DNA of 21,948 nucleotides from the IMG/VR virus record IMGVR_UViG_3300030328_005445, positions 1 to 21,948 of that record; one strand, 5' to 3'. The notes beneath the pieces were generated by a model that was given only the letters and a program-made list of their open reading frames with translations, did no database searches and was not told the origin of the DNA. This stretch comes from a virus. This document shows, one piece after another, positions 3,159 to 21,948 of the stretch; position 1 is the stretch's first letter, and each line of letters opens with the position of its first letter. Made by a program: the position numbers and the translations under genes.

Positions 3159-3569
3159 ATGCTTTATCAGCACGTAAAAACAGGAGCGCGAGTTAAAGTT
3201 GTTAGTGAGTGGGACGATGGCGATTGGTTTATGATCGAAGATCAAGACGGTCGTGTATTTACTGCTTATAAAACTGAAGTTGTTCCCGATCAAAAGGCAA
3301 CTAAACAAGTTAAAAGTCTTCAAGTAAAAGACGCAGCAGCTAAAGAAGAAGTTCGCAAATTTCCTCCTGAAACACGCCTTAATGTAAACTCAGCAACCGC
3401 ACAAATGATTGCTGATCATATTAAAGGAATTGGTTTAAAAACAGCTCGTGAAATTAAAGACTTACAACTTTCATTGTCGGGTGAAAGATTTCACAGTTTA
3501 GATCAATTAAAACAAATTAAACGTGTTGACTGGGATTCTGTTTTTGCCGCTGATTTAGTTAGAGTTTAA
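3159..3569 (+). CDS. SH3-like plus helix-hairpin-helix DNA-binding protein
   Basis: Residues 1-43 (HVKTGARVKVVSEW, DWFMIEDQDGRV) read as a small SH3- or KOW-like beta barrel. A charged linker follows at about 44-70. Residues 72-127 match the helix-hairpin-helix module of ComEA type: RLNVNSATAQMIADHIKGIG with the GIG hairpin at 90-92, then a second half, FHSLDQLKQIKRVDWD. That module binds the DNA backbone without sequence specificity. The ATG at 3159 is the only usual start in the frame, because TAG closes it upstream at 3132. It lies at the end of the head operon just before a terminator, so it may handle genome ends in the head or at the neck. Alternatives are a recombination or packaging accessory. 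The domain reading is fairly secure; the role is inference. Confidence 0.75.
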   Translation: MLYQHVKTGARVKVVSEWDDGDWFMIEDQDGRVFTAYKTEVVPDQKATKQVKSLQVKDAAAKEEVRKFPPETRLNVNSATAQMIADHIKGIGLKTAREIKDLQLSLSGERFHSLDQLKQIKRVDWDSVFAADLVRV

Positions 3570-13766: not shown

Positions 13767-14420
13767 ATGTATCTTTATCAAGATGCTATTTCTATAATTA
13801 AAGCCTTTGAAGGTTTTAACGAAAAAGCTTACCCAGACCCTATTACTGGAAGCGATCCATATACTTTTGGATATGGAACACAATTTTATCCAGATGGTTC
13901 TCAGGTTAAGCAAGGTCATTGTTGTACCAAAGAAAAAGCATTAGAGTATTTGCTTTATGAAGTAAATGTTATTGCAGAAGAAATCGATAAATTAAATCTT
14001 GAAATTGATCTTGATATGAAGCAAGGATTGATTTCTTTTATTCATTCAGTAGGCTGGGACTCTTTTTTATATAGTCCTATTATTGATTTATGTGAAAATG
14101 AAAACTATGCACAAGCTGCTCAAGAGTTTGGCAAATGGATTTTCAATGAAGAACATGAAGTAATTGGAGGTTTATTAGATAGAAGAAGACAAGAAGCTTG
14201 TTTGTTTTTAGCTTTAGAAAATCTTCCTGGAGATTTATTGTTAAAAGCTTTTAGAAATTATTCAGCTTCTGCAGAACAAGTTGCTGCTATTAGGCAGCTT
14301 GAAACAGAAATAAACCCTTATGTTTTGTCAGAATTTGCTAATAAATTTAATGTTACATACAGTGGTGACTTTGATCTATCCGAAGAGGATTTACGTTTTA
14401 TTTTTGAATTCCAAAAATAA
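13767..14420 (+). CDS. Endolysin, GH24 phage-type lysozyme
   Basis: The enzyme cuts the beta-1,4 bond between N-acetylmuramic acid and N-acetylglucosamine. The N-terminus has the GH24 layout: FEGF with Glu15 as general acid, Asp24 in AYPDP, and Thr33 in YTFGYG, matching the Glu-Asp-Thr triad of T4 lysozyme. The Asp-Thr spacing is a few residues longer than in T4. Later landmarks are MKQGLISFIHSVGW (usual ALxSFxFNxG) and GGLLDRRRQEACLF (usual GLxxRRxxExxLF). At 217 residues it is longer than the usual 150-170: the last 65 or so are an extra helical region, perhaps for binding or regulation. There is no signal peptide, so a holin is needed. None is obvious next to it; the membrane protein at 18403 is a remote candidate. 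Confidence 0.9.
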   Translation: MYLYQDAISIIKAFEGFNEKAYPDPITGSDPYTFGYGTQFYPDGSQVKQGHCCTKEKALEYLLYEVNVIAEEIDKLNLEIDLDMKQGLISFIHSVGWDSFLYSPIIDLCENENYAQAAQEFGKWIFNEEHEVIGGLLDRRRQEACLFLALENLPGDLLLKAFRNYSASAEQVAAIRQLETEINPYVLSEFANKFNVTYSGDFDLSEEDLRFIFEFQK

Positions 14421-14458
14421 ATCTATACACTAGAATAAGTAGAGTAAAGGTTAATCGG

Positions 14459-14758
14459 ATGGGTGACTCAACATCTACCAAAGAGTTTGAATTGCCATTA
14501 CACCTGCAACTTGCCATGCGCAAAGCAGAATTAGAAGCACAAGAATTAACCTGGGACCAGCTTTATATTGCGTTGTTAAATTTATATCATCAACGTCTTT
14601 TCGAAATACAAGCTGTAAAAGACATGCTACAAGCTGAGAATATTGAGTTAGAGTTTGATATTCCAAGTGATATAGAGCTAGCACAGCTAGCCCTAACAAT
14701 CATGGCTAACCAAGACGATGATGAAGAGGATGATGATTTAACACCTTTCTTTGGTTGA
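14459..14758 (+). CDS. NblA-like small helical protein with acidic tail
   Basis: Residues 9-58 align without gaps to the NblA/Ycf18 pattern as I remember it: FELPLHLQLAMRK (NblA F-x-L-x-x-x-x-Q-F-x-L), then LTWDQL (ISREDL or MSxEQA), then LLNLYHQRL (LxxLYxQM), then VKDML. NblA is a small two-helix adaptor that binds phycobilisomes and directs them to Clp protease. Several freshwater cyanophages carry nblA. Differences here are an extra hydrophobic segment (about 62-83) and a strongly acidic end (QDDDEEDDD) that typical 55-65-residue NblA proteins lack. Expressed after the endolysin, it ends 1 base before the convergent minus-strand gene. It may instead be an unrelated coiled-coil virion protein. 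Confidence 0.55.
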   Translation: MGDSTSTKEFELPLHLQLAMRKAELEAQELTWDQLYIALLNLYHQRLFEIQAVKDMLQAENIELEFDIPSDIELAQLALTIMANQDDDEEDDDLTPFFG

Positions 14759-14759
14759 G

Positions 14760-15266
14760 TTACAAAGCTATTAATCTAGTTAAATACCACTGAGCCTTCT
14801 TCAGTGATTCAATACCCCCTTTATGCTTTTCGCGCCAAACATATTTTGCTACGTTACCTTTTAGGTAGCCTCTATATTCTTCTGGCGTTAGCTGTGCTTC
14901 GATGGCTTCAATACACTCAAGTCCTCCATCGTTGTAGTGAGAAGGGTGATTAACATTATCAACAAAAATTTCTTCGTGTTTTTTTACATAGTCATTCCAT
15001 ATTTTTTTGTCATACGTTATTTCATTGTCATCACCACTTGTATCAACAGCCCAAGGTACAGGACAAATACCTCCAGGACAATCTGATACTTCTTCTTCTG
15101 AAGTTACCGGTTCAAACCAGCTATCATCTTTCTTTGTTTCTTCTCGTCCATTTCCATTTCCTCCGGTGCGAAGTCGCCCATATCCACCATCAATTGTCGT
15201 GGTTGAGGCATTGCTCCCATTGCTATTCCCTGTTCCGCGCTCGGAATTGTGCCCGTTACTCCGCAT
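14760..15266 (-). CDS. DUF3310 (T7 gp1.7-like) protein; start uncertain
   Basis: Residues about 105-166 carry the DUF3310 signature: VNHPSHYNDGGLECIEAIEA, then YLKGNVAKYVWREKHKGG and LKKAQWYLTRLI. The family includes phage T7 gp1.7, a nucleotide kinase, and it fits with dCTP deaminase nearby. The start is a problem. The only ATG in frame (15266) lies 163 bases inside the upstream gene 15104-15463, and the first 45 or so residues are a Gly/Asn/Ser-rich shadow of that gene. AGAGGA stands about 9 bases before this ATG. No other usual start exists between the overlap and the domain. Since the frame is -1 to the upstream gene, a 234-residue fusion made by frameshifting, or a missing base in the sequence, is an alternative. 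Confidence 0.7.
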   Translation of the reverse strand: MRSNGHNSERGTGNSNGSNASTTTIDGGYGRLRTGGNGNGREETKKDDSWFEPVTSEEEVSDCPGGICPVPWAVDTSGDDNEITYDKKIWNDYVKKHEEIFVDNVNHPSHYNDGGLECIEAIEAQLTPEEYRGYLKGNVAKYVWREKHKGGIESLKKAQWYLTRLIAL

Positions 15267-15463
15267 CGTTGTAGTTCCTCTGGATCAATGGCTAAGTTAG
15301 TACGAGGACGCATTTCTTGTGTTACTGCAAGTCCTCTATTGAATTGATCATACACTGGAACGTCGTTATTTTCATTATCTAATTCTTGTCCAAAATCAGA
15401 AATTGTAACCATACGAGTCTTAAGCTCGTCATTGTCCTTAATAAAAGAGGATAAAAAATCCAT
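15104..15463 (-). CDS. Unrecognised protein upstream of, and overlapping, the DUF3310 gene
   Basis: The 119-residue frame starts at ATG 15463 beside a divergent promoter region. The product is acidic at first (SSFIKDNDELKTRM) with a Pro/Met-rich part (IAMGAMPQPRQLMVDMGDF) and a charged helical end (EEMEMDEKKQRKM). It resembles no family I know. Its last 163 bases are shared with the frame of the DUF3310 protein in the -1 phase. If the two are read as one, this would be an N-terminal extension of the DUF3310 protein. Confidence 0.65.
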   Translation of the reverse strand: MDFLSSFIKDNDELKTRMVTISDFGQELDNENNDVPVYDQFNRGLAVTQEMRPRTNLAIDPEELQRCGVTGTIPSAEQGIAMGAMPQPRQLMVDMGDFAPEEMEMDEKKQRKMIAGLNR

Positions 15464-18905: not shown

Positions 18906-21338
18906 GTGGCAAATAGAAAGATCTCACAATTTCCGACGATTGAATCGGTAGATATTGCCAATGCAGATCTTCTGACCCTGGTTCATGTCTTTGAAGTTGA
19001 CCCTGCGTTAAGAAATAAAAAGATATCTTTTAGTGGTTTTAGAGACTATCTTGATCAATATTATATCAATGTAGGAGAAGATCCTACTTATAACAACATT
19101 ACTATTACAGGTAATTTAGGTGTAAGCGGCGATACTAGTCTTAATAATCTTACAGTTAGTGGTAATTCAGATTTTCAAGCGGTTATTGTTGGGGGTGATC
19201 TAACAACTAGTGGAAGTTTTTCTGTAACAGGAACGATCACTGGTAGTCAAATTGAAGTTAATAATGTTATTGCAGATTTTATTGAAATTAGTTCAGGCAA
19301 TTTTACGATTGTTACTGGCACAACAATAGATTTTGTTACGGGTTTCTTTGACACCATGTCAGGTGCGACCCTCACAGGAGAAAGTTTTGGTGTTGTTTCT
19401 GGAATTATTGTTGATGCTGATATCAACGACTTATACGCACAAGTAGCTCAAATAGATACTCTTAATGTAAACAATGCGACATTTACAGGAGTTTTAACTC
19501 ATAGTGGCACTATTAATAGCAATGACATTAATGCAACAGGCACTATTTCTGGTGCGACGATTACAGGTGACATCGGAAAATATACGACACTTACAGGTCA
19601 AACAGCCGTATTTACAACACAAGTCTCTGGTACAACCATTACCGGTGACTCTGCTTTCTTTGAAAGAACAACAGGAACATTTATTGATGTAACAAATTTA
19701 TCTGGTACAACAATCACTGGTGACAATGGCCAGTTTTTAAATGTTACTGGATTTAGTTCACACTTTACTTCTTTATCCGGCACAACAATTACAGGTGATA
19801 CTGCCAATTTAGCAGCTACTCACGGCACATCAGGATTTTTCACTTATCTATCTGGTACTACTGTTACTGGTGCTTCTGGTTTATTTACTTCATTACAAGC
19901 TCAAACATTAACTGCAGCAAACTTACAATTTAGTGGCGACCAAACTGTTAGTGGTAGCTTTACTGTATTAGAAAATTTACTAGTTAGTGGTTCAGGTTAC
20001 TTCGCTTCTGGTGTAACAATTACAGGAGAAGTAAGTGGTGAAACAATTACAGCACAGTCAGGTAATTTTGATACTATTATTACCTCTCCTTTAATTACTG
20101 GAACTTTATCAGGTGACAATGTATATGTAAGCGGAACCATTACAGGAACAACTCTTTCTACAACAAGTGGACATTTTGTAACTGCTACAGGTACTACTGC
20201 TTCCTTTACAACCTTTACAGGAACAAGTGGAGTCTTTACTAACGTAACAGGTACTTCATTCTCGGGAACAACAATTCATGCACAGACTGGTGTATTTGCT
20301 TCTGGAACTGCATTAAGACCTTCTATTAGTTTTGAAGGACAAGATGACACAGGTATCTTTGTTACCAGTGGAACTATTGATGGTAACCCAGCACAAGAAA
20401 AATATCTAGGTTTTACTACTAGTGGTCAGGAACGTTTCCGTATCAGTCGTTATGGTGCCCTGGGAATCTCAGGAGAAAACTACGGTGCTCATGGACAGGT
20501 TTTAGTTTCGCAAGGAGCAGGTGAAGCCCCTATTTGGACTAGCACGATTAGTGGCATTGTTATTAGTGGTGGTGAAATATCAATTACTGGTGACTTATTT
20601 GTTAGTAATACAATTACTGGCTATCGCATTTCAGGTGAATTTATTGATGCAGTACAAGAAATAACAGCAGCAAGCGGCGCATTTGCAGGTACTGTTACAG
20701 GTTTGACTGTACTTGCTAATACTGTTTCAGGTGCAACAATTTCAGGCCAAACAGTTACAGGTGTTAGAGCATTATTTGCAACAGGTACTTTCCAAGATTT
20801 ATTTGTCGATGATGACTTTGTTATTGGAGACAACCTTACTGTTAGTGGTGATTTAGAAGTCAGTGGCAATTCAGTCTTTGATAGTGGCATTGTTGTTAGT
20901 GGCTCCAGTGTTTTCCGTGAAGGCATTACAGTTACCGGTACAAGTAATTTTGTTAGCGGAATTCTTATCGGACAAAACCTAACAGTAACTGGAACTATTT
21001 CTGGTACTACTGTTACTGGAGAAACAGCAACCTTTACAACTGGTCAGTTCAATGATCTTTATATTGACGATATTTTTATTGTTGGAGACAACTTAACTGT
21101 TAGTGGAGATTTAAACGTAAGTGGAGAAGCTTATTTCCAGAGTGGATTACTAAGTCGAGATCAAGCTTTCTTCCCCTCAGGAAACCAAGCTAATCCTGGA
21201 ATCACTTTTATTGATGATGCCAACACAGGTTTATATAGCAGCTCAGGAGATGCAATTGAATTCACTGCTGGTGCAAGCAGAAAAGCGACAATCTCTTCTG
21301 GTGTCTATGGTGCGGTCCTAACAATTTGGGGTAACTGA
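18906..21338 (+). CDS. Repeat-rich tail fibre protein
   Basis: The 810-residue protein starts at GTG 18906. Residues 1-50 (NRKISQFPTIESVDIANADL ... YLDQYY) form the type of N-terminal anchor that joins fibres to the tail or baseplate. The body is built of short beta repeats with TxSGTTITGD-like turns. Four copies keep an exact 25-residue period (from residue 241), and an 86-residue module (TGxFxDLxxDDxFxxGDNLTVSGDL) is repeated at residues 626 and 712. Two globular insertions with xITFxDDxxTGxYS features are seen near 472-540 and 760-800. The protein probably forms a trimeric beta-helical fibre for host recognition. A second, related gene follows after 41 bases. Synonymous codons differ between repeats, so they are old, not freshly copied. 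Confidence 0.85.
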   Translation: MANRKISQFPTIESVDIANADLLTLVHVFEVDPALRNKKISFSGFRDYLDQYYINVGEDPTYNNITITGNLGVSGDTSLNNLTVSGNSDFQAVIVGGDLTTSGSFSVTGTITGSQIEVNNVIADFIEISSGNFTIVTGTTIDFVTGFFDTMSGATLTGESFGVVSGIIVDADINDLYAQVAQIDTLNVNNATFTGVLTHSGTINSNDINATGTISGATITGDIGKYTTLTGQTAVFTTQVSGTTITGDSAFFERTTGTFIDVTNLSGTTITGDNGQFLNVTGFSSHFTSLSGTTITGDTANLAATHGTSGFFTYLSGTTVTGASGLFTSLQAQTLTAANLQFSGDQTVSGSFTVLENLLVSGSGYFASGVTITGEVSGETITAQSGNFDTIITSPLITGTLSGDNVYVSGTITGTTLSTTSGHFVTATGTTASFTTFTGTSGVFTNVTGTSFSGTTIHAQTGVFASGTALRPSISFEGQDDTGIFVTSGTIDGNPAQEKYLGFTTSGQERFRISRYGALGISGENYGAHGQVLVSQGAGEAPIWTSTISGIVISGGEISITGDLFVSNTITGYRISGEFIDAVQEITAASGAFAGTVTGLTVLANTVSGATISGQTVTGVRALFATGTFQDLFVDDDFVIGDNLTVSGDLEVSGNSVFDSGIVVSGSSVFREGITVTGTSNFVSGILIGQNLTVTGTISGTTVTGETATFTTGQFNDLYIDDIFIVGDNLTVSGDLNVSGEAYFQSGLLSRDQAFFPSGNQANPGITFIDDANTGLYSSSGDAIEFTAGASRKATISSGVYGAVLTIWGN
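19626..19925 (+). repeat. Four 75-base tandem units in the fibre gene
   Basis: SGTTITGD-type octapeptides start at 19626, 19701, 19776 and 19851, spaced exactly 75 bases (25 residues) apart. A looser copy starts at 19548. The DNA of the units differs mainly at third codon positions. Confidence 0.8.
20781..21110 (+). repeat. 86-residue duplicated module in the fibre gene
   Basis: The segment starting at 20781 (TGTFQDLFVDDDFVIGDN) recurs at 21039 (TGQFNDLYIDDIFIVGDN), 258 bases apart, and both continue LTVSGDLxVSG. The first copy runs into the second, giving a tandem duplication inside the distal shaft. Confidence 0.7.
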
Positions 21339-21379: not shown

Positions 21380-21948
21380 ATGCCACAGTTTGGCGAGGTT
21401 CGCGTTGATTTTATAACGTTTACTACAGGCGTTTCCCCAAACGAGGCAAGTATTACTGTACCTGTCTCAGGACTTCTACGTAATCCTACTTTTAGTGGTA
21501 ATGTCATCATCAATGGTGACCTAGATGTTCAAGGTGATATCACAAATAGTGGTAACTACAATACCGTAACAGGAAATATTACAACAACTAGTGGTACTAT
21601 TTCTGGTGCTATTGGTCGATTTACAACAGGAATTGTTGGAGATTTAACAGTTACCGGAACACTATCTGGTGTTGACCGAATTTATTTTGAAAGCGGTAGT
21701 GCTACTGAGCCGTCAATTACTTTTATTGATGACGAAAATACAGGCATTTTTACAGTTGCTCCCAACACTATTTCAGTTACTGCTGACGGTAATGAATGGA
21801 TACGTGTTTCAGGCAATGGAGATACACATTTATTTAGTAGTGGCGCATTAAAAATTCCGTCTGGTACAACAGCTGCTAGACCAGGGACTTCAGCTACCGG
21901 CATGATCCGGTACAACACTACCCTTAATCAATTCGAAGGCTATGACGG
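21380..21948 (+). CDS. Second tail fibre gene (3' end outside window)
   Basis: ATG at 21380 opens a frame that stays open to the last base. The 189 visible residues start PQFGEVRVDFITFTTGVSPN, then have SGN/TSG-type beta repeats like those of the first fibre. The segment SITFIDDENTGIFTVAPN parallels the GITFIDDANTGLYSSSGD segment of the first fibre. They continue into IPSGTTAARPGTSATGMIRYN, a motif common near receptor-binding ends of phage fibres. It therefore looks like a shorter fibre or a distal, tip-forming partner of the first gene. No strong ribosome binding site is seen. Confidence 0.8.
   Translation, partial: MPQFGEVRVDFITFTTGVSPNEASITVPVSGLLRNPTFSGNVIINGDLDVQGDITNSGNYNTVTGNITTTSGTISGAIGRFTTGIVGDLTVTGTLSGVDRIYFESGSATEPSITFIDDENTGIFTVAPNTISVTADGNEWIRVSGNGDTHLFSSGALKIPSGTTAARPGTSATGMIRYNTTLNQFEGYD

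Follow-up and report, generated by a model that had tools for sequence, protein, structure and literature searches.

A diverged relative of the phycobilisome adaptor NblA appears to be a core gene of S-EIV1-like cyanophages

What is encoded by the short open reading frame (ORF) that follows the lysozyme gene in a phage genome from IMG/VR, and is its resemblance to NblA, the cyanobacterial adaptor for phycobilisome proteolysis (PF04485; PDB 1OJH, 2QDO/2Q8V and 3CS5), a real one? The DNA analyzed, called the window below, is the 21,948-nucleotide stretch of record IMGVR_UViG_3300030328_005445; the features around the gene are listed in Table 1. An initial annotation, made from the letters alone, had proposed a divergent or modified NblA with an acidic extension. 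The ORF that it gave was confirmed exactly, with the same strand, length and ATG start. Over the core (residues 1–80), comparison with four close relatives gave dS of 0.53–0.86 and dN of 0.005–0.011, corresponding to 19–26 synonymous and 1–2 non-synonymous differences; owing to this low dN relative to dS, we regard the ORF as a real gene under strong purifying selection.

Relatives of the protein are numerous in IMG/VR, where a single-sequence search returned 102 of them and an alignment search returned 341 loci. Among GenBank phages there is one, AHV82245.1 of Synechococcus phage S-EIVl (S-EIV1), which is annotated as hypothetical, without function. It shares 63% identity with the window protein over residues 1–79 and has the same gene neighbors, and it is the ortholog; no DNA-level relatives of the window were found among GenBank phages. 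We also scanned genome contigs of 84,980 species with a procedure that depends on conserved peptides. No copy of the gene was found in a cyanobacterial chromosome, and the single match (L149, WTIG01000150.1) is a contig of 3.7 kb from a Puniceicoccaceae MAG. Its genes follow the complete order of S-EIV1-like phages; it is therefore binned phage DNA, probably misbinned cyanophage DNA.

Table 1. Positions of the NblA-related gene, its parts and its neighbors in the window
Feature	Position	Strand	Basis
Lysozyme/endolysin, constant upstream neighbor	13767..14420	+	Phage_lysozyme PF00959, E=5e-19
TAGAATA box, 21 nt before ATG, putative -10/late-type promoter	14431..14437	+	Conservation
NblA-related phage protein (P0001), 99 aa	14459..14758	+	ORF, ATG start
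NblA-like helix-loop-helix core, residues 9–58	14483..14632	+	Ungapped NblA profile match; AF2 helices
Extra predicted third helix, residues 71–86	14669..14716	+	AF2, block confidence about 61–74
Acidic, probably disordered tail DDDEEDDDLTPFFG, residues 86–99	14714..14755	+	Family-wide; low AF2 confidence 91–99
DUF3310 protein, constant convergent downstream neighbor	14760..15266	-	PF11753, E=6.6e-20

The gene has a fixed location. The initial annotation had placed it beside the endolysin, and indeed the Phage_lysozyme ORF ends 38 bp upstream; the same arrangement, with the NblA-like gene directly after lysozyme, was found in all 76 loci that have enough upstream sequence. On the other side, the DUF3310 ORF is convergent, its stop codon being 1 bp away, and a DUF3310 gene lies less than 600 bp downstream in 59 of 66 loci. 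Beyond the DUF3310 gene, the same small proteins, a dCTP deaminase and a methyltransferase recur across loci. The window and S-EIV1 arrange their genes alike in the region of lysozyme, DUF3310 and dCTP deaminase, which makes the window genome S-EIV1-like. Because of its constant place after lysozyme and before DUF3310, the NblA-like gene belongs to the core genes of these phages. The isolated phage S-EIV1 infects Synechococcus, and hli-type genes are present in S-EIV1 and in two relatives (G004 and G007), the latter close to the window's clade; the host is therefore a cyanobacterium. An S-EIV1-like prophage is reported from Synechococcus elongatus UTEX 3055 (PMC9239245). The CpeT and psbA families are absent from the 17 records examined. 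Next to the gene, the minus-strand DUF3310 ORF and a second minus-strand ORF (15104–15463, 119 aa) overlap by ∼160 bp in different frames, and this overlapping pair is retained in most relatives.

The window protein alone gave no Pfam match, its own clade likewise has no match to PF04485, and NCBIfam offered weak unrelated matches at most, the best being RepC, which we rejected. Due to the missing Pfam match, the NblA suggestion could not be confirmed from the single sequence. At the family level, the homology is well supported by profile comparisons. An hmmsearch of the PDB (177,635 sequences, E≤10) with a profile built from 26 family members returned a single chain, NblA 1OJH (E=0.0032), and aligned window residues 9–59 with NblA residues 4–54 without gaps. 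With a 57-sequence core profile, 1OJH was again found (E=0.004), the next match having an E-value of 2.4. PF04485 matches 12 of the 26 family members (best E=7.4e-5), and the L121/L147 clade reaches 23.7 bits by hmmscan (curated cut-off 25). A six-frame PF04485 scan of 16 related phage records found the gene in 10 of them, including S-EIV1, with a best score of 24.7 bits (E=1.9e-6); no family member is at or above the curated 25 bits. The PF04485 search that the initial annotation had suggested was thus negative for the window protein itself and positive, always below the cut-off, for some of its relatives.

We further built an independent NblA HMM from eight sequences and searched it against 5,037 ORFs; the first 40 ranks were all occupied by the NblA-like family, and the best non-family ORF had an E-value of 0.47. 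Profile–profile comparison also recovered the match to NblA. By hhalign, the family aligned with NblA over residues 9–58 (E=6.6e-5), and the core scored 28.9 (E=1.4e-5). None of 200 column-permuted alignments scored as well (maximum 17.2), and reversing the alignment gave a score of 8.2. Homology to NblA at the profile level is therefore beyond chance; the ungapped fit of residues 9–58 in the initial annotation was recovered by hmmsearch against the PDB, by hhalign and by PF04485 on the relatives. A tblastn search of the phages with Anabaena NblA gave no match.

The AlphaFold2 model of the full-length protein (mean pLDDT 68.5) contains three helices, residues 14–28, 32–59 and 71–86, followed by a disordered tail. 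When the core was modeled alone, two helices with the expected loop were obtained (pLDDT 86). Foldseek did not return NblA, either with the full-length model against PDB and BFVD or with the model of the core against PDB. Because a hairpin of two helices offers such a search little fold information, we do not count this miss as a refutation; structure prediction agreed with the suggested NblA-like region in its two helices and loop, and the fold search did not return NblA.

To locate what is kept and what is changed, seven NblAs were compared column by column with 74 distinct family proteins (1OJH numbering). The columns that are always hydrophobic in NblA (7, 13, 15, 18, 22, 25, 30, 33–35, 37, 42, 43, 48, 51 and 52) are hydrophobic in 88–100% of the family proteins, and the [LM]-[ST] helix-2 capping position is retained. 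Like NblA, the family thus has an ungapped core of ∼50 residues with the hydrophobic positions, the predicted helix-loop-helix, the E-x-L start and the helix-2 cap. Different from NblA, the family has Leu or Met in place of the invariant Gln of the N-terminal E-Q-x-F motif in 74 of 74 proteins; the Glu is kept in 13 of 74, and the aromatic position is Phe or Leu, so that the E-Q-x-F motif as such is absent. Position 53, mostly Lys and basic in NblA, is Gln, Ala, Glu or Thr. The family has its own invariant residues (P13, W32, R46 and E49), and several positions that are polar in NblA are hydrophobic here (L16, L25, Y36 and I50 of the window protein), which would fit packing of the third helix. 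Compared to NblA, of about 63 aa, the window protein is longer (99 aa) owing to the acidic tail and the third helix that is predicted before it, and it is not an NblA-type small protein of ∼60 aa without other domains. Since the scores stay under the Pfam threshold and both the E-Q motif and the length differ from NblA, the family should not be filed in PF04485. As judged from these alignments, it is a diverged NblA relative and not a canonical NblA. The initial description as a divergent form with an acidic extension is accurate, the homology being well supported at the family level; a role as adaptor for phycobilisome breakdown is putative, given the Pfam scores, the replaced Gln, the changed position 53 and the Foldseek result.

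The extra segment noted at the outset corresponds to residues 60–86 and includes the predicted third helix, a region in which the motif P-[ST]-x-x-E-L-x-x-L-A is conserved family-wide. The strongly acidic tail is real and universal, being present in 74 of 74 distinct family proteins; it is DDDEEDDDLTPFFG in the window protein and DDDDDDIDDLRKELAPF in the S-EIV1 ortholog. A Phe is located at the last position in 46 of the proteins and at the second to last in 28. Like the C-terminal tips of SSB proteins, many tails combine an acidic run with a terminal -PF (for example DDEEEAIPF, DDEEGVPF and DDDDLQPF), and the SSB of S-EIV1 itself ends in TDEPF. One could therefore imagine a mimic of the SSB tip, in which the tail captures host or phage replication and repair proteins and the hairpin merely presents it. 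However, the pockets that receive SSB tips use the terminal carboxylate, which a residue after the Phe would remove, and 28 of the 74 proteins have such a residue. Among them is the window protein, which ends in PFFG, as the Phe of its clade is not terminal; it has no acidic run closing in a C-terminal P-F. Unlike SSB, the family protein has no OB fold or DNA-binding domain, and in five relatives with a readable SSB tail, the SSB tails do not track those of the NblA-like proteins. Owing to the non-terminal Phe and the lack of tracking, this mimic is a weak rival, and we consider it very unlikely.

Replacement of the motif Gln may bear on function. NblA is reported to bind ClpC through a conserved N-terminal motif and phycobiliproteins through a C-terminal motif (PMC4103541), and E-Q-x-F would belong to the N-terminal one. 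With the E-Q motif lost, an NblA-derived anti-adaptor becomes a serious rival. Such a protein would pair with host NblA or fill its site on the phycobilisome and recruit no ClpC; antenna breakdown would be blocked, and light harvesting would continue until lysis. The core scaffold is retained, yet the invariant Gln is lost in every member; the additional hydrophobic positions at the surface (16, 25, 36 and 50) and the third helix point to a new interface, for packing or for a partner; hli, a gene that supports photosynthesis, is found in related phages; and NblA functions as a dimer (PMC7966870). However, a literature search for NblA with anti-adaptor gave no precedent, and in some clades, the altered motif keeps a similar shape (PLELQF versus SLEQQF). 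We judge the anti-adaptor unlikely. A broader version, in which S-EIV1-like phages turned NblA into either an anti-adaptor or a retargeted Clp adaptor, is likewise unlikely in our estimate. Under it, the scaffold would be kept and the E-Q lost, the third helix and Phe tail would form a surface for a new partner, and the phage would protect the host antenna or redirect Clp to another substrate.

The position of the gene raises another alternative, namely a late helper of virion assembly or lysis, such as a chaperone-like accessory of the lysozyme cluster, whose hairpin resembles NblA by coincidence. Its location directly after lysozyme in every one of the 76 loci, within a structural and lysis cluster, is consistent with this, as is a weak PHROG match to a tail assembly chaperone (phrog_2992) in 8 of 26 members (best E 0.0045). 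However, that match extends over residues 14–94, acidic residues of the tail included, and is not obtained with the core on its own; being driven by the tail-containing stretch, the chaperone identity was rejected. The NblA match, in contrast, survives the permutation, reversal and PDB-wide controls. The region upstream of the start codon is also informative. The TAGAATA box is exact in 61 of the 74 distinct relatives and has one mismatch in 13, at 19–26 nt from the start; its columns are invariant across 18 upstream regions that have diverged around it. Neither the window nor S-EIV1 as a whole is enriched in the box; a few further S-EIV1 genes also have it upstream, including those at 768, 49618, 50979 and 13572. 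The box is likely a phage promoter element, putatively of -10 or late type, and the NblA-like gene, the last of the lysozyme cluster, probably has a promoter of its own. Because of this conserved box, adjacency to lysozyme need not mean a joint function, and a role as assembly or lysis helper appears rather improbable.

Both the assembly or lysis role and the SSB-tip mimic fit less well than a role at the phycobilisome and Clp. The comparisons are best explained by a core gene that derives from NblA and is specific to the lineage of S-EIV1-like cyanophages. That its product acts on the host phycobilisome/Clp system through the NblA-type hairpin has, in our view, about an even chance. The small cytosolic protein would descend from NblA, or share ancestry with it, residues 9–59 corresponding to the NblA helix-loop-helix and helix 71–86 and the acidic Phe tail being additions of the phage lineage. 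When made during infection, its hairpin may bind host phycobiliproteins, which would be brought to the host Clp protease or loosened for it; amino acids would be freed and light input presumably lowered, and the tail may act as a flexible stretch for docking or engagement. The cyanobacterial hosts speak for an antenna role, as do other cyanophages with working NblA: according to PMC9602691, which cites Nadel et al. 2019 and Gao et al. 2012, expression of their NblA-type proteins triggers pigment loss. Against the adaptor reading stand the scores below the Pfam cut-off, the missing PF04485 match in the window's clade, the changed position 53 and the Foldseek searches. In addition, the Gln of the presumably ClpC-linked N-terminal motif is always Leu or Met in the aligned proteins, and a late position next to the lysis gene is unusual for a protein that should be made early; nblA of Ma-LMM01 is an early gene (PMC4103541).

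Like Ma-LMM01 and PaV-LD, these phages have an NblA-type protein in a cyanophage; the Ma-LMM01 and PaV-LD proteins are canonical and score 52.0 and 45.4 bits to PF04485, versus 17.4 for the S-EIV1 protein. The marine cyanophages S-TIM5 and S-SCSM1 are published NblA carriers by remote homology (PMC9602691) and, like the present family, represent distant NblA relatives in cyanophages. In their genomes, neither PF04485 (E≤10) nor the NblA-like family found a match; by that measure, the family is nearer to NblA. In a survey with nblA entries for other cyanophage groups, hli and ptoX were the only genes given for the S-EIV1 group (PMC5332604). The NblA likeness is absent from that survey and from the GenBank entry, and may have gone unrecognized in this group. 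If the reading is correct, a gene of NblA type for control of the antenna is fixed in the core genome of a whole, widely sampled cyanophage lineage, rather than being picked up now and then as an accessory. The altered motif, the added helix and the tail would then amount to a natural experiment that could tell on which regions of NblA the recruitment of ClpC depends.

Elsewhere in the window, a 136-aa ORF (3159–3569) within the structural gene cluster contains a helix-hairpin-helix-like stretch, LNVNSATAQMIADHIKGIGLKTAREI. Two ORFs near the end (18906–21338 and 21380–21946) encode long proteins of repeated SGTTITG-type units, which are probably tail-fiber or β-helical adhesins.
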